Source: a virus. Taken from it: 64,000 nucleotides of DNA. Positions within the stretch are counted from its first letter, which is position 1, and each line of letters begins with the position of its first letter. Shown here in pieces: positions 2,572 to 24,053 of this stretch. The stretch is from IMG/VR virus record IMGVR_UViG_3300023181_000025, positions 124,001-188,000 of that record, one strand, 5' to 3'. Both the position numbers and the translations under genes were made by a program. Below the pieces are notes generated by a model. That model ran no database searches and was not told where the DNA came from. It saw only the letters and a list, made by a program, of their open reading frames with translations.

Positions 2572-2735
2572 AAATTAGTTTGAAAGTTGATAAGGAAGAA
2601 GTATTGGCCTTTGATAGCGATAGTAAAAAGCCGAAATCGGTAGAAGATATTATTCAGCTTCTTAAGAATACTATTAGTTTTCTGAATGGAGAAAAGATTG
2701 ATAATTACCCCGAGCTTAAAGCCGAAGAATTATAA
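2568..2735 (+). CDS. Hypothetical 55-residue protein
   Basis: A small charged protein (MKISLKVDKEEV start) with a predicted amphipathic helix around VEDIIQLLKNTISFL. No family is recognised. It sits directly downstream of a promoter-like site and overlaps a possible tiny ORF by ATGA. It is supported by context rather than by homology. Confidence 0.5.
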   Translation: MKISLKVDKEEVLAFDSDSKKPKSVEDIIQLLKNTISFLNGEKIDNYPELKAEEL

Positions 2736-2751
2736 ACTTTTAAATATTAAT

Positions 2752-2982
2752 ATGAAAAAACGAACACGATTTGAGGCGGTTAATGAAAAGTCAGAAGGGT
2801 TAAAAGGGGCCGAAGAAAAAGGCGAAGTAGCTGATTCTCAAGAAGTGAGAGTCGCACTCATAAAAAGAATGCACGCGGGAGAGATTACGCTTGACGAAGC
2901 TCAAAAAGAACTCAAGAATATAAAGCGTAACGCAGCTAAGAATGGCCTCAAAACAAGAAGCCAAGTGTGGAAAGAAGGATAA
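2752..2982 (+). CDS. Small basic protein
   Basis: A 76-residue Lys/Glu-rich protein. The C-terminal half (KRMHAGEITLDEAQKELK, then NGLKTRSQVW) is the recognisable part and looks like a short helical hairpin seen in small phage proteins. The start is at the ATG after TATTAATATG. A longer frame upstream would overlap the preceding small gene. Function is unknown. It stops 6 bases before the RNA ligase gene. Confidence 0.6.
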   Translation: MKKRTRFEAVNEKSEGLKGAEEKGEVADSQEVRVALIKRMHAGEITLDEAQKELKNIKRNAAKNGLKTRSQVWKEG

Positions 2983-2988
2983 ATTAAT

Positions 2989-4065
2989 ATGATTTTACCC
3001 AACAAAGACGAATTTCAGTTCAAAGAATGCACTATAGCAGGCGATCTTTGTTGGCTGATTACGCCAAAAGATATGAAAACAGTTTGGACGGACGAGAATG
3101 CTCGTTTCCGTAGCTGTATTGTGAGGCAATCTGATAATTACGTAGTATCGCAGGGTTTCGGAAAGTTTGTCAACTATTCCGAGCGGCCTGATTTCCAGCC
3201 ATGGGATGACTTGTGGAAGTTTGAGGCGCGGCATAAATTAGATGGTTCGCTATTAATTGTTTCACGTTATAAGGGTCAATGGATTCTTAGAACTCGCGGA
3301 ACATCCGATGCGCGACAACTGGCTAACGGTCACGAAGTTGATCTTTTGATGCGGAAGTATAAAAGATTCTTCGATGCTCATGTCTTCGAAGATACGGAGA
3401 GAGCTTCTGTTTTGTTTGAATGGACTACTCCTTCGAATATTATTGTTCTCCGCGAACATGACACCCCCACCTTGACCCTGCTTTCAATTGTGGGACATGA
3501 CAGGTGTGAATATGCAGTGCAAGTCGCTCTTGATAATATTGCTAAAATCTATGGATTTAATCGCCCCGCTCCTTACATCTACGCCTCCATTGCTGAATGT
3601 ATTGCAGACGTTAAGGCTTGGAAAGGTAAGGAGGGCGTTGTGATTTACTCGCCAGACGGTCAGATCATGAAGAAAATTAAGGCAGACGCCCATCTTGAAC
3701 TTCATCGACTTGCCACCGGAATTAAAAACGTCAATCAGGTGCTAGATGTTTTCTTAGCTTCACCTAAGTTTACTGCTTATGAAGATTTTTATAATTACCT
3801 TGTCACAACAATTGATTTTGAAGTAGCGGAGAAGTGTAAAGATTTTATAACTCAAATAATTGAGGCATATAACAAAATCCTCATCAAGCTCCATGAAGTT
3901 CACCACATTGTAGAACAAAATCGTGAAGGATTTTCGCGGCGGGAACAATCGGAACAATTCCGCAAGCATTTTCAAGGGTGGCAATTGTCAGCAAGTTATA
4001 TTTTGCTTGACAAAAAAGAAATTCCCAATAGCCTATGGGAGAAATCAATTAAAGAAGAATTATAA
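2989..4065 (+). CDS. T4 Rnl1-like RNA ligase
   Basis: A 358-residue ATP-dependent RNA ligase of the T4 Rnl1 (RnlA) type. The nucleotidyltransferase lysine is K83 in KLDGS (motif I). Motif III-like LFEWTTP lies at 142-148, motif IV EGVVIY at 215-220 and motif V KKIKAD at 228-233, followed by an all-helical C-terminal region as in Rnl1. It would join 5'-phosphate and 3'-hydroxyl RNA ends in the cytoplasm. In T4 the enzyme repairs tRNAs cut by host anticodon nucleases. All core motifs are present and the length fits the family. The P-loop kinase upstream could prepare ends for it. Confidence 0.9.
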   Translation: MILPNKDEFQFKECTIAGDLCWLITPKDMKTVWTDENARFRSCIVRQSDNYVVSQGFGKFVNYSERPDFQPWDDLWKFEARHKLDGSLLIVSRYKGQWILRTRGTSDARQLANGHEVDLLMRKYKRFFDAHVFEDTERASVLFEWTTPSNIIVLREHDTPTLTLLSIVGHDRCEYAVQVALDNIAKIYGFNRPAPYIYASIAECIADVKAWKGKEGVVIYSPDGQIMKKIKADAHLELHRLATGIKNVNQVLDVFLASPKFTAYEDFYNYLVTTIDFEVAEKCKDFITQIIEAYNKILIKLHEVHHIVEQNREGFSRREQSEQFRKHFQGWQLSASYILLDKKEIPNSLWEKSIKEEL

Positions 4066-4072
4066 TAAACAT

Positions 4073-4987
4073 ATGCAAAAACAACGAGAACCAGACGATA
4101 CGAAGAAGAAAACATTTTCTTTTTACGATGAAATGATTAAGGGCGAAACAAAAAGGTTTGTCCCAACAAAATCAAGATTCCTTAAAACAGACCATATTAG
4201 CATTAATCCACTAGAGGCTCGCCATATTCTTAAATTTTACAATAAGAAAAACAGAAAGCCATCTCCTGTTGTTGTAACGAAATATGCAAAAGATATGGAA
4301 AATGATAATTGGATGTTTAATGGACAGCCCCTTACGTTTTCTCAAGAAGGGGATCTAATGGATGGACAACATCGACTTCTGGCACTAATTAAATCTAACA
4401 AAACTTTGAATTTCTGTGTCCATTATGGACTTAAATCAGAGTCTTTCGTTACTATTGATAATGGAAAAATTCGAACAAATGCTGATGTTGTTGGTCTAGA
4501 GGGTTATAAGGATTCCGCTGTATTGTCTTCCCTTGTTCGATCTATTATTGCTTACGAATCTTCCGGCAAGTATGACGCTAAGACTTGCAATCTAGAAGGA
4601 ATTAATCAAATTACAAAATCAGAAATTCTAAACTATCTTTCTGAAAGTCCAGAAATTGTAGATTATGTGGGGAGATATAGGAAAAGTATGGTAGTTTCCT
4701 CGCATGTTGCGGCATTTTGTTATTGGTTGCTTTCTTCTGTGAATCAGGAAAAGGCTGAGGAATATCTTGACCAAGTATTTATGGGTTATGAACTTCGACC
4801 TAATACTATCGAGCAATATCTAAACAATAAACTTCAAAGGAATAAGGTTTCTCCGCATAATAAAATGACAAAAACGGCCATTATTGCGAATGTTGTTTTG
4901 GGATGGAAAAGGTTTACAGGGGTATCGAAGAGTAACTCTCTTCAAATTAGTTGGGATGCCCGCAACGGAATCCCAAAGCCATATTAA
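4073..4987 (+). CDS. ParB-like DGQHR domain protein
   Basis: A 304-residue protein with a ParB/Sulfiredoxin-fold signature. A VVVTKYAKDMENDNW helix is followed by DGQHRLLAL at residues 97-105, the conserved DGxHR turn of phage ParB-like and DNA-modification-linked proteins. The C-terminal 180 residues are helical. Such proteins can be nucleases, ATPases or CTPases, and which applies here is not visible. The start is the ATG after AAACATATG, 7 bases after the ligase stop. A frame opening 150 bases earlier would lie inside the ligase. Confidence 0.75.
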   Translation: MQKQREPDDTKKKTFSFYDEMIKGETKRFVPTKSRFLKTDHISINPLEARHILKFYNKKNRKPSPVVVTKYAKDMENDNWMFNGQPLTFSQEGDLMDGQHRLLALIKSNKTLNFCVHYGLKSESFVTIDNGKIRTNADVVGLEGYKDSAVLSSLVRSIIAYESSGKYDAKTCNLEGINQITKSEILNYLSESPEIVDYVGRYRKSMVVSSHVAAFCYWLLSSVNQEKAEEYLDQVFMGYELRPNTIEQYLNNKLQRNKVSPHNKMTKTAIIANVVLGWKRFTGVSKSNSLQISWDARNGIPKPY

Positions 4988-5034
4988 TTAAACTTATGCC
5001 ATTGTTGAGTAAAAACCAGCAATGACACCATAAT

Positions 5035-5685
5035 ATGAAAACCCTCCCGAAGTTTACTCCAGTTGTTCATATTACTTCACATAGTCAGGCGCTTGAGCAA
5101 AGCGCCTTGGCTTTTTCTAATGGAGCGGATGGGATATTTTTAATTTCGCATTCCCTTTCTTATAAGACGCTATTAGATGCATACAAAAAAGTTAGGGCAA
5201 TTTTTATGGATGAGTGGATTGGGGTTAATTTTTTAGATCTGAGTCCGCTTGACGCCTCTATACAAATCCCTTCGGATGCAGACGGCCTGTGGATTGATGA
5301 GGGGTTCGGATTTTCTTCCGAATTCCTACCCTCTTTCAAAAATTATCGTGTATTCCCCGGAATTGCCTTCAAGTATCAAAATTCAGGTCTATCTTTAGAA
5401 CAGGAAGTGTTGCAAGCCCTACATGATTATAGTGAGAGTGATGTAATTACAACTAGTGGACCCGCCACAGGAAAAGCGGCGGAAATAGACAAAATTAAAT
5501 CACTTCGTTATTTGATAGGACCATGGCGCAATTTGGCTTTAGCCAGTGGAGTCACGCCCAATAATATTGTTGACTATCTTCCATATGTTGATACATTCAT
5601 GGTCGCCACGGGGATTTCAGAGTCTTTCGACAAACTTGATAAGCATAAGGTTCGCGATATGGCAGAAATAATTTTAAAATATTAA
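5035..5685 (+). CDS. BtpA/PRAI-like TIM-barrel protein
   Basis: A 216-residue protein that reads as a (beta/alpha)8 barrel. It has repeated strand ends such as NGADGIFLI and IGVNFLDL, a phosphate-binding-like ITTSGPATGKAAEI, then LALASGVTPNNI and DTFMVATGI. This order (T-G-x-A-T, then SGVTPxN, then a final GT/GI) matches the BtpA family and relatives of phosphoribosylanthranilate isomerase. The likely ligand is a phosphorylated metabolite, but the reaction is unknown. It is an unusual phage gene. It starts after CATAATATG and is followed 1 base later by the next gene. Confidence 0.6.
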   Translation: MKTLPKFTPVVHITSHSQALEQSALAFSNGADGIFLISHSLSYKTLLDAYKKVRAIFMDEWIGVNFLDLSPLDASIQIPSDADGLWIDEGFGFSSEFLPSFKNYRVFPGIAFKYQNSGLSLEQEVLQALHDYSESDVITTSGPATGKAAEIDKIKSLRYLIGPWRNLALASGVTPNNIVDYLPYVDTFMVATGISESFDKLDKHKVRDMAEIILKY

Positions 5686-12881: not shown

Positions 12882-13844
12882 ATGAATATTATCCAACAAA
12901 TTATGTCGCCTTTTGCGGGAATCAACTTGACAGAAATTCTCGTATTTCTAATTCCGTTTATCTTGGCGGTAATTATTGATATTCGAAGTCATAAACCCGG
13001 AGAAACCATCACAATGAAAAATGCCGCGCTTTGGAGCTTAGTTTGGTTTGGCTGCGCAACATTGTTTGGAGGATACATCTACTTAGAGCGGGGAGCCGAG
13101 TCAGCAAGCCTTTTCGCCACGGGTTATGTTTTAGAAAAAGCTTTGGCGGTGGATAACCTTTTTGCCTTCTATATTATTTTCAAATCTTTTGGGTTGACGC
13201 AAGACTCTACCCAGCATTACCAACATAAAATTCTTTATTGGGGTATTTTGGGTGCCATCTTTTTCCGTGTGATTTTCTTGGGGGCCGGAGCACTAATTGT
13301 TAATTTTAGTCCATACGTTCTAATTGCATTTTCGCTCGTTATTCTTTGGACGGTTTGGAAAATGTGGAAGAGTGGCGACGGGGACGAAGAAGTTGATTAT
13401 ACGAACCATTTTTCCGTAAAACTTGTTAAAAAGTTTTCCAAAGTAAATCCAAGCATTCTTTCAGGAAAATTTTTCTCTAACGGAGTTACGCCGTTGTTTC
13501 TTTGCCTAGTGTGTGTGGAGGCGTGCGATGTTATTTTTGCATTTGATTCTATGCCGGTAATTATTGCGGTTGTAAAAGATCCATTCTTGATGATTACTTC
13601 GAGCCTATGGGCGGCGGCAGGCCTTCGGTCTCTGTATTTTCTTCTGATCGCTGCGCAAGGAAAGTTCTGGGCGCTCGATAAGGCAATTATGCTTCTACTG
13701 GTGTTTGTAGCGGGCAAATTGATCGGAAACGGTTTGGGGTATCATCTACCGAACGCTATTAGCTTGACAATTGTTTCGATGATCTTAACTTTTGGCGTAG
13801 TATATTCACTAATTGTAAAGAATCCAGAACCTGAAGAAGCTTAA
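12882..13844 (+). CDS. terC: TerC-family membrane protein
   Basis: A 320-residue TerC protein with about nine hydrophobic segments across its length. The conserved acidic membrane motifs are present: EKALAVDNLF at residues 85-94 and EACDVIFAFDS at 213-223, with the FFSNGVTPLF stretch between. TerC proteins sit in the inner membrane and bind or move metal ions, linked to tellurite resistance, manganese export and phage resistance. The length matches bacterial homologues and no key residue is missing. It heads a run with TelA- and TerD-like genes, so it probably anchors that system in the infected cell. Confidence 0.93.
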   Translation: MNIIQQIMSPFAGINLTEILVFLIPFILAVIIDIRSHKPGETITMKNAALWSLVWFGCATLFGGYIYLERGAESASLFATGYVLEKALAVDNLFAFYIIFKSFGLTQDSTQHYQHKILYWGILGAIFFRVIFLGAGALIVNFSPYVLIAFSLVILWTVWKMWKSGDGDEEVDYTNHFSVKLVKKFSKVNPSILSGKFFSNGVTPLFLCLVCVEACDVIFAFDSMPVIIAVVKDPFLMITSSLWAAAGLRSLYFLLIAAQGKFWALDKAIMLLLVFVAGKLIGNGLGYHLPNAISLTIVSMILTFGVVYSLIVKNPEPEEA

Positions 13845-13856
13845 TATAAAATAAAT

Positions 13857-15050
13857 ATGAATAATACAAAAACAATTACCCCGGTTTCCCTATTTGGAAA
13901 CCAATCTAAACCAATTCGAGGATCAGAGGTTCAATCGGTTGTTATTGATGAGGTTTTTCAAACACCGAAGAATACGCAACTAGAGGTTCTTTCAGAGGTT
14001 CCGGCAAAACTAGTTCAAGAAAATCAACTAGTTCAAATTGATGAACAAAAAATTGTTTTGTTCGGATCTGAAAGGCAACGAGAAATTGGAAAATCGCTTG
14101 ATAGTCTTTTAGTCGAAATTACCAAAGGAAATTCTCCGATTTTGTTTGAGCTTTTTTCTCAACTTAAGAAAGGGGTTGACGAAACAGATGTGGGTCAATT
14201 GGAGGAAGATATTCGAAAGTCGCAAGGAAAGTCATGGTATCACCCCATTCTCGACTCTATTGGTCTGAGTAGTGCGGCCAAACGGATTCAAAAAGCAAAC
14301 GAAAGGATTGGAGGACTTTTGACTAGTAAATCAAAAAGCCTTCTTGACCTAACTAAAACAATGGAGACCAATCTTCAGGTTGAAGTTCAAAAACTTATTG
14401 CAGACAGTAAAAGGCTTGATTCCTTGGCTATTGAATATCGAAGAAATATTCAAGAGTTCGGTAATTATGTTGCCGCTGGAAAACAAATCCTTTTGCAGGC
14501 TCAATCCGTATTAGCGGAAAAAGAGAAGAAAGCGGCGCAAACCAATAGCCCTCTTGATATTGAAGAGGTCAAAAATTTTCGTCAAAAGGTTGATCTATTC
14601 GAATCCCGCCTTGTTGTCTTGGAAACGGTTTATGCCAAAGCACCCGTTGAACTTGAAGCAATTAGAATCAGTCAAGGGGCGGCACTCTCCACTCTTGGAG
14701 AGACAGCGAATAGCGCCCTAGAAGAGTTTAATAGCATTAAGTCTATTCTTATTAGGCTTCAACTTTCTCAGTCTATCCATTCCACTCAGGCCATTAACCA
14801 AGAACGCAAAAATCTTCTTTCAAAGCTTGAAAATCACGGAAGTAATATGCTTGGACAAGTTGCTGAAAAGGCTGCAAAAGATCAAGGGCAAAACAGGATT
14901 GATGATGCCAAGAAACTTCTTGACTTCGCAAACCGCTTGAATACTATCAACGATAAGGTTGAAGCTGAAAAGAAGCTTAATGTTTCTCGGTATGCCGAAG
15001 CAAGACAATCACTACAAGAAACAAAGAAACTAACAGAAAAAATTAAATAA
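13857..15050 (+). CDS. TelA-family toxic-anion resistance protein
   Basis: A 397-residue protein matching TelA in length and build. A disordered 60-residue N-terminus (PVSLFGNQSKPI) is followed by long helical, heptad-rich segments from about residue 80 to the end (RIGGLLTSKSKSLLDL, then ISQGAALSTLGETANSAL). TelA proteins are cytoplasmic partners of TerC and TerD. The ISQGAALSTLGE region corresponds to the most conserved part of the family. A second, shorter relative follows TerD at 15737. The gene is 12 bases after terC, so it is the same operon. Confidence 0.8.
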   Translation: MNNTKTITPVSLFGNQSKPIRGSEVQSVVIDEVFQTPKNTQLEVLSEVPAKLVQENQLVQIDEQKIVLFGSERQREIGKSLDSLLVEITKGNSPILFELFSQLKKGVDETDVGQLEEDIRKSQGKSWYHPILDSIGLSSAAKRIQKANERIGGLLTSKSKSLLDLTKTMETNLQVEVQKLIADSKRLDSLAIEYRRNIQEFGNYVAAGKQILLQAQSVLAEKEKKAAQTNSPLDIEEVKNFRQKVDLFESRLVVLETVYAKAPVELEAIRISQGAALSTLGETANSALEEFNSIKSILIRLQLSQSIHSTQAINQERKNLLSKLENHGSNMLGQVAEKAAKDQGQNRIDDAKKLLDFANRLNTINDKVEAEKKLNVSRYAEARQSLQETKKLTEKIK

Positions 15051-15057
15051 AAATAAT

Positions 15058-15666
15058 ATGGCCACATTTAATCTAGAAAAGGGAAGTAAGTTTAGCATCG
15101 ACAAGGGAATCGCCCGCGTTCTTGTTGGGCTTGGCTGGGATGAAGCAAAAGTTGCTCCACCCATTGATGTTGACGCGCACGCATTTGGATGTGTTCATAC
15201 GGCTCAGGGAACACCTGTTTTTTACAATGACGCTTCTCACGTAGTATCGTATGCGAATAAGGCAAATCTTGAAAAGGGGGCGGCAAAGTCTTTTGGGACC
15301 AAAGACGGAAGTATTACTCATACAGGTGATAACCTTACCGGAGCTGGGGAGGGTGATGATGAGAGCATTGCAATTAATCTTGAACTTCTTCCAGACGAGA
15401 TTGTTGAAGTTTGTATTTTTCTCACGATTCATGACGCCATTAAGCGTAAGCAAAACTTTGGACAAATTTCAAAAGCTTATGTTCACCTTGTCGATCAGGA
15501 TTCGAACGCCGAACTTTGCCGATACGACCTAAAGAACGAATTTGCTTCCGCAATCACCATTCAAGTAGGTAGCCTTGTTAAGGAAAACGGCAGTTGGAAC
15601 TTTAAAGCCGTTGGAGCGGGAACAGACACACAAGGACTAATGGAAGTTCTTGAGCAACTTAGTTAA
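15058..15666 (+). CDS. terD: TerD-family protein
   Basis: A 202-residue TerD-domain protein with all landmarks: an N-terminal LEKGSKF, GLGWDE near residue 26, the calcium-site acidic cluster DVDAHAF near 37-43, then a DNLTGAGEGDDESI loop and an AYVHLVDQ strand. TerD proteins bind calcium and are cytosolic effectors of the Ter stress system. The length is that of a single-domain TerD. It ends the first part of the operon and is followed by an overlapping terminator and promoter. Confidence 0.93.
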   Translation: MATFNLEKGSKFSIDKGIARVLVGLGWDEAKVAPPIDVDAHAFGCVHTAQGTPVFYNDASHVVSYANKANLEKGAAKSFGTKDGSITHTGDNLTGAGEGDDESIAINLELLPDEIVEVCIFLTIHDAIKRKQNFGQISKAYVHLVDQDSNAELCRYDLKNEFASAITIQVGSLVKENGSWNFKAVGAGTDTQGLMEVLEQLS

Positions 15667-15674
15667 GCAATGAC

Positions 15675-15702
15675 TTGACAAATATAGGGTCGCGTTTATT
15701 AT
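15675..15702 (+). promoter_or_regulatory. Promoter overlapping the terD terminator
   Basis: TTGACA at 15675-15680, 16 nt spacer, TATTAT at 15697-15702. The spacer holds the left arm of the terminator hairpin and the -10 lies in its loop. It would transcribe the second TelA-like gene. Confidence 0.6.
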
Positions 15703-15721
15703 GGGCGCGACCCTAATTTTT
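15685..15721 (+). terminator. Rho-independent terminator after terD
   Basis: A perfect 10-bp inverted repeat, TAGGGTCGCG at 15685-15694 and CGCGACCCTA at 15706-15715, with an 11-nt loop, followed by a run of T residues from 15718. It would stop transcription of the terC-telA-terD operon. Confidence 0.8.
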
Positions 15722-15736
15722 TAATATTTGGATAAA

Positions 15737-16639
15737 ATGAGCACAACAAAAAGCATTTTTGATAATTTTCCAAAGAAAACGGAGGAAAAGAAAGCTGTGT
15801 CTATTTTTGCAAATCCAATATTTAAAGCAGAATCTAAACCATATACCGGCCCAAAACCACTTTTCGAAAATTCAAAAGTTCGAAATAGGATTATGGTATC
15901 AGTAGAAGATTTGAAAAAGTTTTCTACCGACCTTGAAAGTATTGAAATCGCTCAAAAACAAATATTAATGACAAACGCAGACGAAATCTGTCTGGAATAT
16001 GTTCTTAATTGGGGGTCAGAAATTCAAAAGCTTTATACGCAATCTTTAGAAAATTTTTCGTCAATCGCGACGAGACAAGAGATTTCTGAAATCAAAAATT
16101 TGATTTGCGGAATAGTGGGAGTATTAAATAAAATTGTTGAGCCAACAAACGCCATCATAAAAAGTTTAATTAAGTATCTTTCTCAAGAATATAATACCCC
16201 GGCGCAATATCAGCAAGAAATAAAAGAATTCTGTAATAAGTTTGATGCGCTTTTGCCTAGTTTGGTGGAAATTAGGAAGGAAACGGCATTTTTAACAAAG
16301 CAAACAAATGATTTGCTTAAAGGGCTGGAACCTTATATTATTACATGTAGTTTTTTTTCGGAGTATTCAAAAGATAATTTTCCCCAACAGCTTTACATTT
16401 CTCGTCTTTCTAGTCTGCTGTCAACAAGAATAGGTTTGATACAAAATATTGCTATCCAAAATACATTTTTGATGAATTTGGTTGACTTGACTGAAAATGT
16501 GAATAACGTAATTGCAAATGATGTCCCAGCTTGGCTCACTTGCTATTTTAGTAATTTAAATAACAAGGATTCTCCCGAGACATTCGATATAAGAAAAAAA
16601 CAACAAACAATTCTAGAAAAACTAAAAAAATATGGCTAA
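15737..16639 (+). CDS. Second TelA-like helical protein
   Basis: A 300-residue protein, mostly long helices. Its N-terminus (SIFANPIFKAESKPY) resembles the start of the TelA protein upstream (SLFGNQSKP), and its general build is similar. It lacks the ISQGAALSTLGE block, so it is a divergent or shortened TelA relative or another coiled-coil partner of the Ter complex. The start is the ATG at 15737; a TTG nine bases upstream is less likely. It overlaps the next gene by 8 bases. Confidence 0.65.
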   Translation: MSTTKSIFDNFPKKTEEKKAVSIFANPIFKAESKPYTGPKPLFENSKVRNRIMVSVEDLKKFSTDLESIEIAQKQILMTNADEICLEYVLNWGSEIQKLYTQSLENFSSIATRQEISEIKNLICGIVGVLNKIVEPTNAIIKSLIKYLSQEYNTPAQYQQEIKEFCNKFDALLPSLVEIRKETAFLTKQTNDLLKGLEPYIITCSFFSEYSKDNFPQQLYISRLSSLLSTRIGLIQNIAIQNTFLMNLVDLTENVNNVIANDVPAWLTCYFSNLNNKDSPETFDIRKKQQTILEKLKKYG

Positions 16640-16850
16640 TACAGTAAACGGTGGCGGGATTTCTTTTGTGGGCTTACTCACAATCCTTTTCATCGCACTT
16701 AAACTAATCGGCATTATTTCATGGCCATGGATTTGGGTTTTGTCCCCGATTTGGATCGGGTTCGCCCTTGGCCTTGCGATTTATCTTCTTATCGGTCTTG
16801 CGGGCATTGTTGTTATTATTTTTGCAGCAATTTTTGGATCTTTTAAATAA
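16632..16850 (+). CDS. TMEM185-like small membrane protein
   Basis: A 72-residue protein with two transmembrane helices (about residues 9-27 and 35-68) separated by an ISWPWIWVLSPIWIG turn. That turn is the signature of the Tmemb_185A-like small proteins common in phages and bacteria. It is an inner-membrane protein of unknown role. Sitting between the TelA-like and VWA genes, it may be the membrane partner of that complex. Confidence 0.75.
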   Translation: MANTVNGGGISFVGLLTILFIALKLIGIISWPWIWVLSPIWIGFALGLAIYLLIGLAGIVVIIFAAIFGSFK

Positions 16851-16875
16851 TCTAACTAACACAAAACAAACAAAT

Positions 16876-17598
16876 ATGAAATTCGATCTACAAAAACAAA
16901 CGGATAAGGCAAAGTTTACTATCGAAAAGAAAGGGATTCCAACTAGCCAGAAGATGGCGGTTGTATTGAATCTTGACGTTTCCGGTTCCGCTCAGGGTCT
17001 ATATACTTCAGGAACGATTCAAGAGCTTTTCGAAAGCATTACACCTCTTGCTCTTAATTTTGATGATAACCAATCTCTTCAAGTCTTTACATTTTCTTCT
17101 GGTAGCAGCAGTGTAAGCGAAATTACTCCTGATGCGAACGCCTCAAATTATGCAGGATACATTAAGAAGAATATTTTGGAAAATCGAAATGTGCCAAAGT
17201 GGGGAGGAACTGAATATGCTCCAGTTCTTAAGGCAAATCTGGAGAATCTTGGATATTACAAGAAGTCGGGCCTTTTTGGAGGAAAGCAACTTCAAGCCAA
17301 AAATGATTCGGGATACCCGTCATTTATTATAACGTTCACAGATGGAGCGAATCAAGACCAATACGAAGTTCGCAGGCTTTTGCGGGAGTATCAAGATAAA
17401 GGGGTGAACGCTTATTTCCTTTATATTGGCGTCGGCCCATCTTCTTATTTTACAAATATTGAAGAGCTTGGCGAGGAATTTTCCAATGTAGGTTTTGTTG
17501 GAGTTTCCAATATCCAAAAGTTTGTTGATTCGGATGATATTTACGATCAGCTTCTACCCGATGAGCTAATTGAGTGGCTTAAAGCGGCTCGCAATTAA
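16876..17598 (+). CDS. VWA-domain protein (TerF/TerY-like)
   Basis: A 240-residue von Willebrand factor A domain. The metal-ion-dependent adhesion site is visible: D34-V-S36-G-S38, a later GGTEYAP near 115 and FTDGANQD near 155. It is of the TerF/TerY type seen in bacterial Ter operons, where VWA proteins bridge TerD-like and effector proteins. It starts after CAAATATG. An upstream in-frame start would overlap the membrane-protein gene. A terminator follows 23 bases after the stop, closing the transcription unit. Confidence 0.85.
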   Translation: MKFDLQKQTDKAKFTIEKKGIPTSQKMAVVLNLDVSGSAQGLYTSGTIQELFESITPLALNFDDNQSLQVFTFSSGSSSVSEITPDANASNYAGYIKKNILENRNVPKWGGTEYAPVLKANLENLGYYKKSGLFGGKQLQAKNDSGYPSFIITFTDGANQDQYEVRRLLREYQDKGVNAYFLYIGVGPSSYFTNIEELGEEFSNVGFVGVSNIQKFVDSDDIYDQLLPDELIEWLKAARN

Positions 17599-17621
17599 CA
17601 ATTATTACATATAATTTCAGA

Positions 17622-17647
17622 AACCCCGGCGAAAGCTGGGGTTTTTT
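17622..17647 (+). terminator. Rho-independent terminator after VWA gene
   Basis: Nine-bp stem AACCCCGGC / GCTGGGGTT (one G-U pair) around a GAAA tetraloop, followed by TTTTTT at 17642-17647. Confidence 0.85.
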
Positions 17648-17650
17648 GTG

Positions 17651-17678
17651 TTGACTAATCAAAGATAATAGGTAGGCT
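17651..17678 (+). promoter_or_regulatory. Sigma70-like promoter
   Basis: TTGACT at 17651-17656, 16 nt spacer, TAGGCT at 17673-17678, 6 bases before the HAD gene ATG. It starts right after the terminator T-run. Confidence 0.55.
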
Positions 17679-17684
17679 ACTGAC

Positions 17685-18335
17685 ATGACAAACGACATTA
17701 ATGGTGTATCGCTAGATTTCTGGCGAACGATCGCAACACCAAATCCAGAATATTCGAAACAAAGAAATTTGTTTCTTTCTAAGATATCTGGGTTCAGTGA
17801 AAGTTATTGTGCGGCGGTTTATAAAAGCATTAAGAAACATTACGATGGCCGCGCCGAGTCCGAAGGAAAAGCCTCTACGCCCCATGAATGCTGCGAGGCG
17901 CTTATGCTTCCTTTAGGGCTTGATGGTGAATGCACTCCGATGGACCTTGAGCATGATTTCATGGAAATGTTTGTGGAGAATCCTCCAACGGTTTTAGACG
18001 AAACCGTTGAACAGATTAACCGCTTGTCCAAACATTATAAACTCAATATTTGTAGTAATACTAATTTTATTTTTAGCTCTATTCTTCGGAAAGAAGTGTT
18101 GGAGCGGCGCGGATTAAAATTTGATTTTGAGTTGTTTTCTGATGAGGTGGGAGTGTCTAAACCTCACAAGACAATTTTTGAACTAGTTAAGCTTAAGCAT
18201 GGACTTAATGGCGATCAGGTCTTGCATGTGGGCGATACAAAGTCTACAGATTTTGATGGAGCTTTGAATGCGGGCCTTAAAGCATTTCTCATTAAAGACG
18301 CAAATGATCTTCCACAACTACTTAAAAAACTTTAA
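17685..18335 (+). CDS. HAD-superfamily hydrolase of the Ter island
   Basis: A 216-residue HAD (subfamily IA) hydrolase. The nucleophile is D11 in LDFWRT; the second Asp of the usual DxDxT is a Trp, as in dehalogenase-like branches. Motif II is SNT near residue 124, then KPHKTIF, and HVGDTKSTDFDGA near 186 supplies the last acidic pair. A helical cap lies at about 20-110. Bacterial Ter neighbourhoods often include a HAD enzyme beside a phosphoribosyltransferase, proposed to make a nucleoside-like metabolite, and both occur here. The substrate is unknown. Confidence 0.8.
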   Translation: MTNDINGVSLDFWRTIATPNPEYSKQRNLFLSKISGFSESYCAAVYKSIKKHYDGRAESEGKASTPHECCEALMLPLGLDGECTPMDLEHDFMEMFVENPPTVLDETVEQINRLSKHYKLNICSNTNFIFSSILRKEVLERRGLKFDFELFSDEVGVSKPHKTIFELVKLKHGLNGDQVLHVGDTKSTDFDGALNAGLKAFLIKDANDLPQLLKKL

Positions 18336-18338
18336 AAT

Positions 18339-18788
18339 ATGAAATTAAAATTTAAAGTATGGGCCAATTTGGCAAATGATGATGGTTGCGTTGGGTTTTT
18401 AGAAAATCGCTCTCCCGTCGCCGAAGGGGTAGATTTTTTCTATGACGCGAGGTGGCGTGGAATTTCTTATTTCATAAATAAAAATACTTTTGAAGTAAGT
18501 CTTTCAATAGGAGTGCAAGATAAAAATGGAATTGATATTTATGAGAACGATATCGTTTCTGTTATATATCCCGAGAATAGATTTATTGTAAAATATGGGA
18601 TTGTAAAAAGAGATATAGTGGGATTTGATGGTGAAATTCACCCAATCGAAATAAGAGGGTTTTATTTTGAAAATATTTCTACCAAAAACCCGCATTTTTC
18701 TATAACAAATAATTTTTTTGGGGAGAATGACCTAAAAAGGACTGAAATAATTGGAAACGTGTTTGAAAATCCAGAACTATTAGTTTGA
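18339..18788 (+). CDS. YopX-family protein (copy 2)
   Basis: A 149-residue YopX-like protein (KFKVWAN start, IGVQDKNGIDIYENDIVSV centre, TEIIGNVFENPEL end). It shares the layout of the copy at 11899 with low identity. It lies 3 bases after the HAD gene and overlaps the promoter of the next gene with its stop codon. Function is unknown. Confidence 0.8.
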   Translation: MKLKFKVWANLANDDGCVGFLENRSPVAEGVDFFYDARWRGISYFINKNTFEVSLSIGVQDKNGIDIYENDIVSVIYPENRFIVKYGIVKRDIVGFDGEIHPIEIRGFYFENISTKNPHFSITNNFFGENDLKRTEIIGNVFENPELLV

Positions 18789-18812
18789 CAAATCGAGAAA
18801 AACCATTAAATT
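18785..18812 (+). promoter_or_regulatory. Sigma70-like promoter overlapping a stop codon
   Basis: TTGACA at 18785-18790 contains the TGA stop of the YopX gene; 16 nt spacer, TAAATT at 18807-18812, 6 bases before the ATG. Confidence 0.6.
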
Positions 18813-18818
18813 AGAAGC

Positions 18819-19640
18819 ATGAAATCAAAACACATCCAATTTGCGGCGCACCGATTTTCCGACCTTCGCAAAGCAACATTCCCCGTAAACGACTATTCGC
18901 GCCTTAAGTTTGGCTGCGATACAGCGGCTCGCAAATTTGGCTATGAACTCGCTGATAAATTTGCGCAAAATCATTTACAAGATATTATTTCAGATCAAAT
19001 TGTAGTTATTCCAGCGCCATACAATTATGTAAAAAATGCTTCCACGATCCTGACGCACCACTTTCTGAATAGACTTAATTCTATCTCAGTCGCAAATGGG
19101 GGCAAGCATGTAGATTATTCGGTTGTAAACCGAAAGACGACATACATTGAGGACTACGCGGCCCTTAGTCAAGAACAGCGAAAGGGCATGATCGACAACG
19201 ATGCTTTTTATATTAATAAGGACTTTTTCAAAGGAAAGACTTTGGTTTGGGTTGATGATGTAATCATAACCGGAACTCACGAAGACAAGGTTAAGGAAGT
19301 TCTCGCGGCACAAGGTCTTAAAAACAAATGTTTCTTTGTTTATTTGACTAAATATAACGGAACCGACGCGGCAATTGAATCACGTCTTAATCTTTGCTAT
19401 GTGAAGAAATTGGAAAACTTTTCTAAAATCTTGCGCAAACAAGAAAACCATGTGACGGTTCGGACTCTAAAGTATATTCTTACAGAGACCGAAGAAAACG
19501 CCAAATTTTTGCTCAAGGGCCTTAACCGAAAGAAGATTTCTGAAATTTACCATGGATGCCTTGGAAAGGGATACTATAAAGTGGCGAATTACGAAAAGAA
19601 TTTCAAAATTATTTCAGATTTAATGACTGAAAAAGCTTGA
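18819..19640 (+). CDS. Phosphoribosyltransferase of Ter-linked type
   Basis: A 273-residue type I phosphoribosyltransferase-like protein. The PRPP loop is LVWVDDVIITGTHED at about residues 142-156 (two Asp, then TGT), preceded by a VVIPAPYNY strand near 62. This fits the PRTase group found beside terC/terD genes in bacteria. It would move phosphoribose onto a base-like acceptor in a small-molecule pathway with the HAD enzyme just upstream. No partner domain (TRSP) is fused. A helical C-terminal region from about 200 is unassigned. It has its own promoter. Confidence 0.75.
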   Translation: MKSKHIQFAAHRFSDLRKATFPVNDYSRLKFGCDTAARKFGYELADKFAQNHLQDIISDQIVVIPAPYNYVKNASTILTHHFLNRLNSISVANGGKHVDYSVVNRKTTYIEDYAALSQEQRKGMIDNDAFYINKDFFKGKTLVWVDDVIITGTHEDKVKEVLAAQGLKNKCFFVYLTKYNGTDAAIESRLNLCYVKKLENFSKILRKQENHVTVRTLKYILTETEENAKFLLKGLNRKKISEIYHGCLGKGYYKVANYEKNFKIISDLMTEKA

Positions 19641-19670: not shown

Positions 19671-20756
19671 ATGTTTGATTCGGGAAATTATAAATTTGTA
19701 GTGGCCATTACTGGCGGAGGTAGTGAATTTATTTCTGATAGGCTTGTTGAGGGCGGGGCATCTAGCTATTTGCTGGAGGCGACAATTCCGTATTCTCAAG
19801 AGTCTTTGAAAGAATATGTAAATGGTGTGAGGGAAAAGTTCTGTAGTGATTCTACGGCTCGACAGATGGCCATGGCCGCTCATTTGAGAGGCATTAAACT
19901 TGGTTACGCCAATACCATTGGTATTGGAGCGTCAAGCTCTCTAACAAAGCCTGACGGCGAAAGAGAGGGTCGCGACCACAGGGCCTTTGTTTCTGTTTGT
20001 TTCCACCCTTATATTTTCTCTGTTTCTCTTGATTTAAACAAATTAGAAATTGATGGCCGAGAACAGCAGGAAAGGTATGTTGCAGAAAGTATTTACGCCT
20101 TATCGTCAGATTTAGTGATGTGGCTTGATCAAAAAAACGATCTTTTTCTAAAGAAACTTCGCGAAAGATGGGAAAGTGAAAACGGCACAATTTTTAATAG
20201 TCACAACAAAGAGTTAGCGGAGTTTATTGTTTCTGACAAGGGTTTGCTATTTTTTGAAAAATATAAGCCAACTGGTCAAGTTTGCGTTTATTCAGGAAGC
20301 TTTAATCCATATCATGAGGGGCACCAATACATTTTTGACAAAACTCAAGAATTGTTTGGAAAAGAAAACGTTTACTTAGAGCTAGCAATTGTTAATCATG
20401 AAAAGGGCGCGCTCGACACCATCGAAATAGCAAAACGAATTCAAAAGTTCTCCGAAGTTAATTTTGTGTTATGCAAATTTGGAATGTTTGTTCATAAGGC
20501 AATGGAGCTTAATAAAATTTTCGAACTTCCCCCTATTTTCCCCATGGGATATGATACCTTCAAGCGTATAGAAAAATGGACTCAGCCTAATGAATTTCTC
20601 GTTTTCCCTCGAAATGGAGAAAGGATAAACAGTTATGAAGAAAACCTTGTTTATGTTCACCCCTACAGCTATAAACTAGGCGAAGGAATTAATATAAGTA
20701 GTTCAGAAATTAGAGCAAACAATGAAAACAACCAAATTCCAAACAAAATATACTGA
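19671..20756 (+). CDS. CinA-like / NMN adenylyltransferase-like fusion
   Basis: A 361-residue two-domain protein. Residues 1-160 resemble the CinA C-terminal (NMN deamidase) fold: TGGGSEF at 14-20, a YSQESLKEYV segment, STARQMAMAA and IGIGASSSLTKPDG. Residues 203-350 form a nucleotidyltransferase of the NMNAT/NadD class with SGSFNPYHEGH at 208-218 and ISSSEIR at 342-348. The second domain would join a mononucleotide to AMP to make NAD+ or a related dinucleotide. The first may hydrolyse or sense pyridine mononucleotides. NAMPT lies 2 kb downstream, and together they could rebuild NAD+. The CinA assignment is weaker than the transferase one. Confidence 0.75.
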   Translation: MFDSGNYKFVVAITGGGSEFISDRLVEGGASSYLLEATIPYSQESLKEYVNGVREKFCSDSTARQMAMAAHLRGIKLGYANTIGIGASSSLTKPDGEREGRDHRAFVSVCFHPYIFSVSLDLNKLEIDGREQQERYVAESIYALSSDLVMWLDQKNDLFLKKLRERWESENGTIFNSHNKELAEFIVSDKGLLFFEKYKPTGQVCVYSGSFNPYHEGHQYIFDKTQELFGKENVYLELAIVNHEKGALDTIEIAKRIQKFSEVNFVLCKFGMFVHKAMELNKIFELPPIFPMGYDTFKRIEKWTQPNEFLVFPRNGERINSYEENLVYVHPYSYKLGEGINISSSEIRANNENNQIPNKIY

Positions 20757-22146: not shown

Positions 22147-22584
22147 ATGAATATCGAACAAGACTTAAAAAATGCAATGAAATCAAAAGACGTTGCGAAA
22201 CTCCCGACTCTTCGGGCGCTTAAGGCGGCCCTGGAAGCAGCGGCAACAAAAGGAAAAACTCGTGTTGAGTTGAGTGATTTGGAAAAGGTCGCGGTAATTC
22301 GCGCCCTTGTAAAACAACGCGAAGACTCTATCGAGGCTTTCCAAAAGGCTGGCTATCCTCATCGCGCCGAAGATGAAAGGGCGGAAAAAGAACTATTGGA
22401 AACTTATTTGCCCGCGCCCTTATCCGACGAAGATCTCAATAATCTTATTGACAAGGCAATCCAAGAAGTTCAGGCTGTGTCCAAGAAAGAAATGGGGAAA
22501 GCTATCAAGAGAGCGGTCGAATTGGCTGAGGGGCGGGTAGCCAGCAATATTATTTCTCAGAAAATTCAAAACAAACTACAATAA
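22147..22584 (+). CDS. GatB/YqeY-domain protein
   Basis: A 145-residue YqeY-like protein: LRALKAALEAAATKGK near the start, then VIRALVKQREDSIEAF and AEKELLETYLPAPLS, ending AVELAEGRVASNIIS. This order and length match free-standing YqeY proteins, which share the tRNA-binding tail domain of GatB amidotransferase subunits. Its role in a phage is unclear; tRNA binding is a reasonable guess. It precedes the NAMPT gene by 59 bases. Confidence 0.85.
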   Translation: MNIEQDLKNAMKSKDVAKLPTLRALKAALEAAATKGKTRVELSDLEKVAVIRALVKQREDSIEAFQKAGYPHRAEDERAEKELLETYLPAPLSDEDLNNLIDKAIQEVQAVSKKEMGKAIKRAVELAEGRVASNIISQKIQNKLQ

Positions 22585-22643
22585 ATTTATTGGGTTTATC
22601 CAATATAATTACGCGAAAATATACAGAAGAATCAAAAAGAAAA

Positions 22644-24053
22644 ATGAAACCAGATAAATATAAAATTATTTCCCAAACCGACAGTTATAAGGTTTCTCAA
22701 TGGAAAGTTTACCCAGACAATATGACAAAAATGTTTTCTTATCTGGAGAGCCGGGGAGGAACTTCGGAAGAAATCACATTTTTTGGTCTTCAATACTTAC
22801 TAAAAGAATATATGGTCGGTCCGGTAATTACGCGGGACGCCATTAATACAATGGAGGTTTTCTTTAAAGGTCATTTTGGAAGAGATGATGTCTTTAATAA
22901 AGAGGGCTGGGAATATATTTTGAAGGAGCATAGTGGGTATCTGCCCATCTCTATTAAAGCGGTCCCGGAAGGAACAACCGTTCCGGTCAAAAATATTCTT
23001 TTGGCGGTAGAAAACACGGACCCTAAATGTGCATGGCTTGTAAATTATTTGGAAACGCTTATCCTTAAAGTTTGGTATCCAATCTCTATTGCTACTCGGT
23101 GTAGAAAAATTCGAAAAGCAATTCTAAAGCATTTGGAAATTAGTGGGTCGCCAGAAACTATTGATTTTAAATTGGTTGATTTTGGTTATCGTGGAGTTAC
23201 TACAGAAGAACAGGCTGGAATTGGCGGATTGGCCGTTTTGACATCCTTTATGGCCACGGATAATTTGGCTGGTATTATTATGGGGATGGAATATTACGGG
23301 ACACAAATGTGCGGTTTCTCTATTCCGGCTACAGAGCACAGTGTGATGGTGGCAAAGGGTCGCGAAGGGGAGCTTGAACAATGCAAACGATTTCTGGACA
23401 AATATCCTAATGGATTAATCGCTTGTGTCTCGGATACTTATAATATTTTTGAATGTTGTAAAAATATCTGGGGTGGCGAACTAAAGGATACTATTGAAAA
23501 TCGGAACGGAACTTTAGTTGTTCGTCCTGATAGCGGTGATTTTTTTGTTGTAGTTCCAAAAATCCTAGATATTTTGGCGGAGAAATTTGGATTCTTCATC
23601 AATTCCAAAGGGTATAAAGTTCTTAGCGATAAAGTAAAGATTATTCAAGGTGACGGAATGGACCCAGAAACAATTGATTTGCTTTTTGCTAAATTGGTAG
23701 AATTAGGTTGGAGTGCGGACAACCTTACCGTAGGGTCGGGAGGTGGACTTCTTATGGAAAATGTTACTCGGGATACTCATAAATTTGCGATCAAGGCTTC
23801 TTGGGCGGAAATTGATGGTAAAGGGGTTAGTCTCTTTAAAGACCCGATCACGGATAATGGAAAAAGCAGCAAAAAGGGCCGACTTAAACTTGTAAAACAA
23901 CTTGCTTTGGATGGCGGCACACAATACATTACAGTTAATGACGCCCACCCTCTCTTTTATGATATGAAGGATGAGCTTGTAGAAGTCTATCGAAACGGTC
24001 ATTTGTTGGTTGACCAAACATTTGAAGAAATCAAGAATCGGGCTAATCAATGA
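22644..24053 (+). CDS. nadV: Nicotinamide phosphoribosyltransferase (NAMPT)
   Basis: A 469-residue NAMPT (NadV) of full length. It joins nicotinamide and PRPP to give NMN, the first step of NAD+ salvage. Conserved segments are all visible: TDSYKVSQ at 12-19, DFGYRG at 179-184, the catalytic-His segment ATEHSV around H242, RPDSGD at 294-299, QGDGMD at 335-340, GSGGG at 364-368 and TRD at 375-377. The start is the ATG at 22644; a TTG 54 bases upstream is less likely. With the NMNAT-like fusion at 19671 the phage could rebuild NAD+ from nicotinamide, as in the NARP2 anti-immunity pathway. It overlaps the next gene by ATGA. Confidence 0.95.
   Translation: MKPDKYKIISQTDSYKVSQWKVYPDNMTKMFSYLESRGGTSEEITFFGLQYLLKEYMVGPVITRDAINTMEVFFKGHFGRDDVFNKEGWEYILKEHSGYLPISIKAVPEGTTVPVKNILLAVENTDPKCAWLVNYLETLILKVWYPISIATRCRKIRKAILKHLEISGSPETIDFKLVDFGYRGVTTEEQAGIGGLAVLTSFMATDNLAGIIMGMEYYGTQMCGFSIPATEHSVMVAKGREGELEQCKRFLDKYPNGLIACVSDTYNIFECCKNIWGGELKDTIENRNGTLVVRPDSGDFFVVVPKILDILAEKFGFFINSKGYKVLSDKVKIIQGDGMDPETIDLLFAKLVELGWSADNLTVGSGGGLLMENVTRDTHKFAIKASWAEIDGKGVSLFKDPITDNGKSSKKGRLKLVKQLALDGGTQYITVNDAHPLFYDMKDELVEVYRNGHLLVDQTFEEIKNRANQ

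Follow-up and report, generated by a model that had tools for sequence, protein, structure and literature searches.

CinA of A. tumefaciens uses S31 and K63 for catalysis and holds the phosphate of NMN with Y58, R145, and G46/S48 (PMC5384747; see also PMC4246079). T105 of the same protein orients the amide, and its S31A and K63A variants are inactive (PMC5384747). The 2013 classification of NMN deamidases mentions occasional fusions of CinA with further domains and sets such proteins aside (PMC3855486). Among phages, NadV is carried by about a third of jumbo phages, paired with NadM (NMNAT-Nudix) or NadR (NMNAT-kinase) (PMC9503650). We present here a phage gene that joins a CinA-fold domain to an NMN/NaMN adenylyltransferase-like domain. 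With a probability of roughly 0.6, we propose that it provides the NMN-to-NAD+ step of a NARP2-like phage nicotinamide salvage pair, with the CinA-fold half, a pseudo-deamidase, as a mononucleotide-binding or regulatory domain.

Location and relatives of the fusion gene

The window, which is the whole stretch of 64,000 nucleotides analyzed here, comprises bases 124001 to 188000 of a virus record of 211,168 bases in total. Its tailed-phage genes include those for a tail-fiber attachment RNA ligase, a Dda-like helicase, and a clamp loader. The fusion gene of the window is an open reading frame with an ATG start, laid out as follows.

19671..20756, + strand: fusion gene, CinA-fold domain plus NMN/NaMN adenylyltransferase-like domain, 361 aa (profile and fold searches)
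19671..20150, + strand: CinA/PncC-fold domain, residues 1-160 (HMM-HMM comparison, Foldseek, and alignments; residue roles from PMC5384747 and PMC4246079)
20277..20720, + strand: nucleotidyltransferase domain, residues 203-350 (PF01467, TIGR00482, and a Foldseek match to NaMN adenylyltransferase 3e27)
20295..20324, + strand: ATP-binding motif GSFNPYHEGH, residues 209-218 (G209, F211, N212, P213, H215, E216, G217, and H218 invariant in 46 members)
20694..20714, + strand: ISSSEIR, residues 342-348, corresponding to SSTxxR of NMN adenylyltransferases (no variation at S344 or R348 across 46 members)

Relatives were found with a search alignment made of the phage protein and the sequence of a presumed plant homologue. 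In genome contigs of bacteria and archaea, they comprise 80 loci, most of which span both domains and a few only one, with one labeled Euryarchaeota. The fusion is widespread among uncultured bacteria: at least 70 such proteins come from Planctomycetota, SAR86, Chloroflexota, Latescibacterota, and other groups. Phages supply a further three, namely, two viral contigs and phage LR745208, the latter found with the sequences of those two. Family statistics refer to 46 of these proteins, aligned together. A full-length fusion was found in 1 of 50,697 phage records; with the window's protein itself, the matches in the phage database were generic nucleotidyltransferases only, and a plasmid search gave no match. 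BFVD holds further viral candidates, including A0A6J5RR79, a fold match of nearly full length. The giant-virus proteins A0A481YR20 and A0A3G4ZJY5 in BFVD (Marseillevirus and Terrestrivirus) are also fold matches, the first of them named as a competence-damaged protein.

A tree of 47 members indicates at least two phage origins, one for the phage of the window together with L005, a locus on a 353-kb phage contig, and one for the locus L006 together with LR745208. The window's phage and L005 form long branches, and their joint placement near SAR86 was not relied on. An EF-Ts domain protein (PF00889, 4.5e-26) adjoins the fusion gene at positions 7043-7711 of L005. A 915-aa huge-phage protein at positions 2716-5463 of the locus L002 has an unusual architecture, with a nucleotidyltransferase-like region after a ParB-like N terminus (GHHRW motif, by eye).

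Arabidopsis At2g01220, which we take to be a plant CinA-like/nucleotidylyltransferase protein, aligns with the phage protein at 29% identity over residues 10-300 (E value, 6e-24), a presumed homology that is treated as a lead and not as a test. No mention of At2g01220 was found in the open-access literature searched.

Among 23 bacterial genomes carrying the fusion, 11 encode a further, separate CinA that passes the cut-off and 20 a separate NadD, so the bacterial fusion is usually neither the sole PncC candidate nor the sole NaMN adenylyltransferase. No conserved gene neighbors were found for the fusion in its bacterial relatives, and inference of function from operons failed. We speculate that in bacteria the enzyme might recycle NMN released elsewhere, for instance by NAD+-dependent DNA ligase.

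Gene neighborhood and the Ter run

The fusion gene ends a run of genes for TerC (12882), TelA (13857), TerD (15058), vWA-TerF (16768), a HAD hydrolase (17685), and PRTase_3 (18819). The two nearest members are as follows.

17685..18335, + strand: HAD hydrolase, YjjG-like, in the same gene run (PF00702, 1.5e-9; TIGR02254, 3.6e-16, below the cut-off)
18819..19640, + strand: PRTase_3, ComF-like phosphoribosyltransferase of Ter type (PF15610, 5.6e-47)

Positions 12882-19640 thus hold a fairly complete Ter run of the tellurite/phage-resistance type on a jumbo phage, with TerC/Alx first. A strong terminator-like hairpin (14 pairs plus a T run) overlaps a near-consensus promoter at 15685-15715, in the gap after terD. 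PRTase_3 ends 30 bp before the fusion gene, and the two are probably cotranscribed.

The fusion could therefore serve the Ter system of the phage, adenylylating or sensing a mononucleotide from the PRTase and HAD to give a dinucleotide-like signal, with no role in NAD+ salvage; its place as last gene of the run, 30 bp behind PRTase_3, favors such a role, and in jumbo phages, Ter systems that include PRTases and HADs have been described as presumed producers of a nucleotide-like signal (PMC7824862). We regard this as a serious rival reading, though an unlikely one. Among the part of the neighbors that was scanned, about ten open reading frames near the fusion in the three other phages, no Ter family was found, and Ter families are not among the recurrent neighbors of the bacterial fusion genes, so that the association is not one that the relatives share. 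The PRTase, moreover, occurs in 154 phage records against the single record with a full-length fusion, and the best family matches of the C-terminal domain are NMN/NaMN adenylyltransferases.

N-terminal half

An earlier note on this DNA, written from the letters alone, had called a CinA-like N-terminal half and an adenylyltransferase-like C-terminal half, and profile and fold searches agree with both calls. The motifs that it quoted are all present and in CinA order: TGGGSEF (residues 14-20), YSQES (41-45), STARQMAMAA (61-70), and GASSS (86-90). Of the two profiles that it proposed to search, CTP_transf_like (PF01467) matches the fusion protein directly, but PF02464 does so only in relatives: 32 of the 46 members match individually (best, 1.3e-7), and the fusion protein itself gave no match at an E value of <1, nor at ≤10 in a search across its genome, because the single phage sequence is too divergent. 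In the genome search, SAR86A, Dehalococcoidia, and planctomycete members passed the Pfam cut-off for PF02464.

The N-terminal half has the CinA fold. The family profile retrieves the CinA structures of T. thermophilus (E value, 0.002) and A. tumefaciens (E value, 0.007) (4ct8/2a9s), and HMM-HMM comparison of this half with PncC/CinA sequences gives probabilities of 94 to 96, with E values, each for a single comparison, of 1e-7 to 2.5e-9. An AlphaFold2 model of the fusion protein has a mean pLDDT of 78 and a pTM of 0.75, with low confidence in the C-terminal domain at residues 320-340 and beyond 355. With this model, the best 21 PDB matches in Foldseek are all CinA (E values, 1.2e-5 to 6.7e-4; target TM up to 0.69), and NaMN adenylyltransferases rank next. 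Profiles, HMM-HMM comparison, and Foldseek thus all place this half in the CinA fold rather than in an unrelated one.

Residues of CinA were mapped onto the fusion protein by three alignment methods (HMM-HMM, HMMER, and merged alignments) with the same result: S31 corresponds to T14, K63 to L46, G46/S48 to G29/S31, Y58 to Y41, T105 to S88, and R145 to R130. A12, which had been taken by hand as the PncC nucleophile position, was ruled out by these alignments, all of which give T14. The catalytic Ser/Lys dyad (S31/K63) that marks the NMN deamidase PncC (EC 3.5.1.42) is accordingly replaced by T14 and L46. The loss of the lysine is family-wide: none of the 46 members has Lys at the K63 position, where L, M, F, T, I, or V stands instead (Leu in the phage protein). 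The 2013 classification likewise reports some fungal CinA proteins without the lysine (PMC3855486). At the S31 nucleophile position, the 46 members have T (17), A (17), or S (10), with Thr in the phage protein. The phosphate ligands are conserved, with G46 and S48 each kept in 45 of 46 members and Y58 and R145 in all 46, and the T105 position is T or S in 45.

The earlier note had offered two functions for this half. The first, a working deamidase that would change the order of the steps toward NAD+, is not supported, given the absent lysine and the Ala or, here, Thr at the nucleophile position. The second, a putative sensor of NMN, fits better because the ligands of the NMN phosphate (G46/S48, Y58, and R145) are conserved. 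Having kept the phosphate pocket and lost the dyad, the CinA-like half, we infer, binds its ligand and does not deamidate it.

An active amidohydrolase with rearranged residues (Thr14, Ser88, Lys47, or the family-specific His103/Glu134), leading from NMN through NaMN to NaAD, is quite unlikely in our estimate. The substrate phosphate pocket and the Thr/Ser of the T105 position would suit it; the nucleophile position is Thr or Ser in 27 of 46 members, and the family-specific His103, Arg104, Glu/Gln133, and Glu/Asp134, which are largely conserved, could build an alternative site. In the phage protein, Lys47 lies one residue past the position of the lost Lys, and together with the Thr at the nucleophile position it makes residual catalysis conceivable. 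Against this stand the general-base Lys in 0 of 46 members and the Ala at the nucleophile position in 17, given that K63A and S31A each abolish the activity of A. tumefaciens CinA (PMC5384747). Deamidation beside NAMPT would also need an extra, ATP-dependent amidation by NadE, and a separate CinA gene is already at hand in the 11 host genomes counted above.

C-terminal half

That the C-terminal half is a nucleotidyltransferase, as first read, holds. PF01467 covers residues 206-349 of the fusion protein at 8.1e-5, over the Pfam cut-off, and is matched by all 46 family members. The best NCBIfam models for the phage protein are those for nicotinate/nicotinamide-nucleotide adenylyltransferase, with TIGR00482 at 1.1e-8; its score of 35.3 bits lies below the equivalog cut-off of 112, which makes the protein a relative outside the NadD equivalog. 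Across the family, TIGR00482 matches 32 of 46 members, NF000843 matches 26, and the CoaD model TIGR01510 matches 5. The GSFNPxHEGH, GxDT, and SSTxxR motifs are conserved, and the combination of GxFxPxHxGH with SSTxxR in a CTP_transf_like domain is that of NMN/NaMN adenylyltransferases. Read from the sequence, the adenylyltransferase motifs of the fusion protein are intact. Sequence does not separate NMN from NaMN as the substrate, and NMN is the one we infer. Use of some other substrate bound by the CinA-like domain, pantetheine phosphate or another mononucleotide, would be allowed by the breadth of the CTP_transf_like superfamily, the curated NMNAT cut-offs that are not reached (35 versus 112 bits for TIGR00482), and the weak CoaD matches, but it is highly unlikely, since NMN/NaMN adenylyltransferase models dominate the family, ISSTxxR and GxDT are conserved, and the domain fused to it has the PncC fold, which binds NMN.

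NAMPT and a proposed NAD+ salvage

A gene for the preceding step of nicotinamide salvage starts 1.8 kb downstream of the fusion in the window and is the likely supplier of NMN.

22590..24053, + strand: NAMPT/NadV, nicotinamide phosphoribosyltransferase (phrog_448, 9e-150; NF006629, 1e-160; PF18127 and PF04095)

A YqeY-like gene (PF09424, 6.7e-35), whose family is typically associated with tRNA amidotransferase, lies directly upstream of NAMPT at 22147-22584.

The phage thus carries NAMPT as NARP2-like salvage does. The adenylyltransferase is of neither the NadM nor the NadR type known from such salvage, and neither a Nudix nor a kinase domain is part of the fusion. A search of the phage record for PRPP synthetase found none, and a NARP1-like prs arrangement was accordingly set aside. 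A 169-kb phage (G025) has NAMPT ~0.5 kb upstream of its fusion gene; a 353-kb phage (G024) has it at a distance; and the fusion-bearing phage LR745208 lacks it. By a simple estimate of 2d/genome length, the chance of such nearness is ~2% for the window's phage and ~1% for the 169-kb phage. Co-presence of the fusion and NAMPT says little, because NadV is common in jumbo phages (PMC9503650); nearness in two phages says more. Apart from the fusion, the records of the window's phage, the 169-kb phage, and LR745208 hold no CTP_transf_like gene. Because NAMPT is missing from LR745208 and was found in only 2 of the 23 fusion-bearing bacterial genomes, its association with the fusion is a trait of certain phages and not of the family.

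Interpretation

In the salvage pair that we favor, NAMPT would convert nicotinamide and PRPP to NMN, and the C-terminal domain of the fusion, acting as a phage NMN adenylyltransferase, would convert NMN and ATP to NAD+. The N-terminal domain would be a PncC/CinA-fold pseudo-deamidase that has kept the pocket for the phosphate of a pyridine mononucleotide but no longer has the Lys required for amide hydrolysis, nor, in many relatives, the Ser required for it. It would most likely bind NMN (or NaMN) and thereby regulate or feed the adenylyltransferase domain. Such a pair would sustain NAD+ during infection or against NAD+-depleting defenses. If so, phages possess a third NMNAT architecture in their NAD+ salvage toolkit around NADase-based immunity, and an NMN deamidase fold has been turned into a binding module on its own competitor for NMN.

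A wider proposal, which we hold tentatively and at somewhat less than even odds, is that these proteins form an undescribed family of allosteric NMN adenylyltransferases in many bacterial phyla, and probably in plants, with the dead NMN deamidase fold as sensor or feeder of NMN, and that phages acquired it on two or more occasions, gaining a third NMNAT type for NAD+ reconstitution beside NadM and NadR. SAR86 and SAR202, both abundant in the sea, are among the bacteria that have this family, which is without description in the open-access literature searched. That literature (subscription journals were outside the scope) yielded no description of CinA fused to an NMN adenylyltransferase, cytidylyltransferase, or CTP_transf domain; the cyanobacterial "NMNAT-C" (PMC13036487), considered as a namesake, was set aside, its text describing no CinA fusion. 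The CinA/adenylyltransferase architecture is already visible in sequence databases.

Comparison with known systems

The fusion family shares with PncC and the CinA C-terminal domain (PF02464; 2A9S and 4UOC) the fold, the order of the motifs, and the Gly-x-Ser, Tyr, and Arg residues that bind the phosphate. It differs from them in the catalytic Lys, absent from all 46 members, in the nucleophile Ser, which is often Thr or Ala, and in the loss of ESC from the ESCTGG block and of AGP from the GIAGP block. PncC/CinA stands alone or behind COG1058/MocF, whereas here it is fused to an adenylyltransferase.

NadM and NadR are likewise HIGH-superfamily adenylyltransferases on phage genomes, usually with NadV/NAMPT (PMC9503650). 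In the fusion, the partner domain is an N-terminal, putatively inactive CinA-fold deamidase rather than a Nudix or kinase domain, and the nucleotidyltransferase domain is NadD-like by profile. Like NARP2 (NAD+ reconstitution by NAMPT and NMNAT), the locus offers NAMPT and a predicted NMNAT on one phage, 1.8 kb apart; the architecture of its NMNAT is different, and its role against NADase defenses is putative. At2g01220, presumably a plant counterpart, shares the two-domain order with the phage fusion and differs in being eukaryotic. A similar viral entry in BFVD is A0A6J5RR79 of an uncultured member of the Caudovirales, a protein of 360 aa with a fold match over 333 columns (E value, 1.2e-16), deposited only as a "cytidyltransferase-like domain containing protein."
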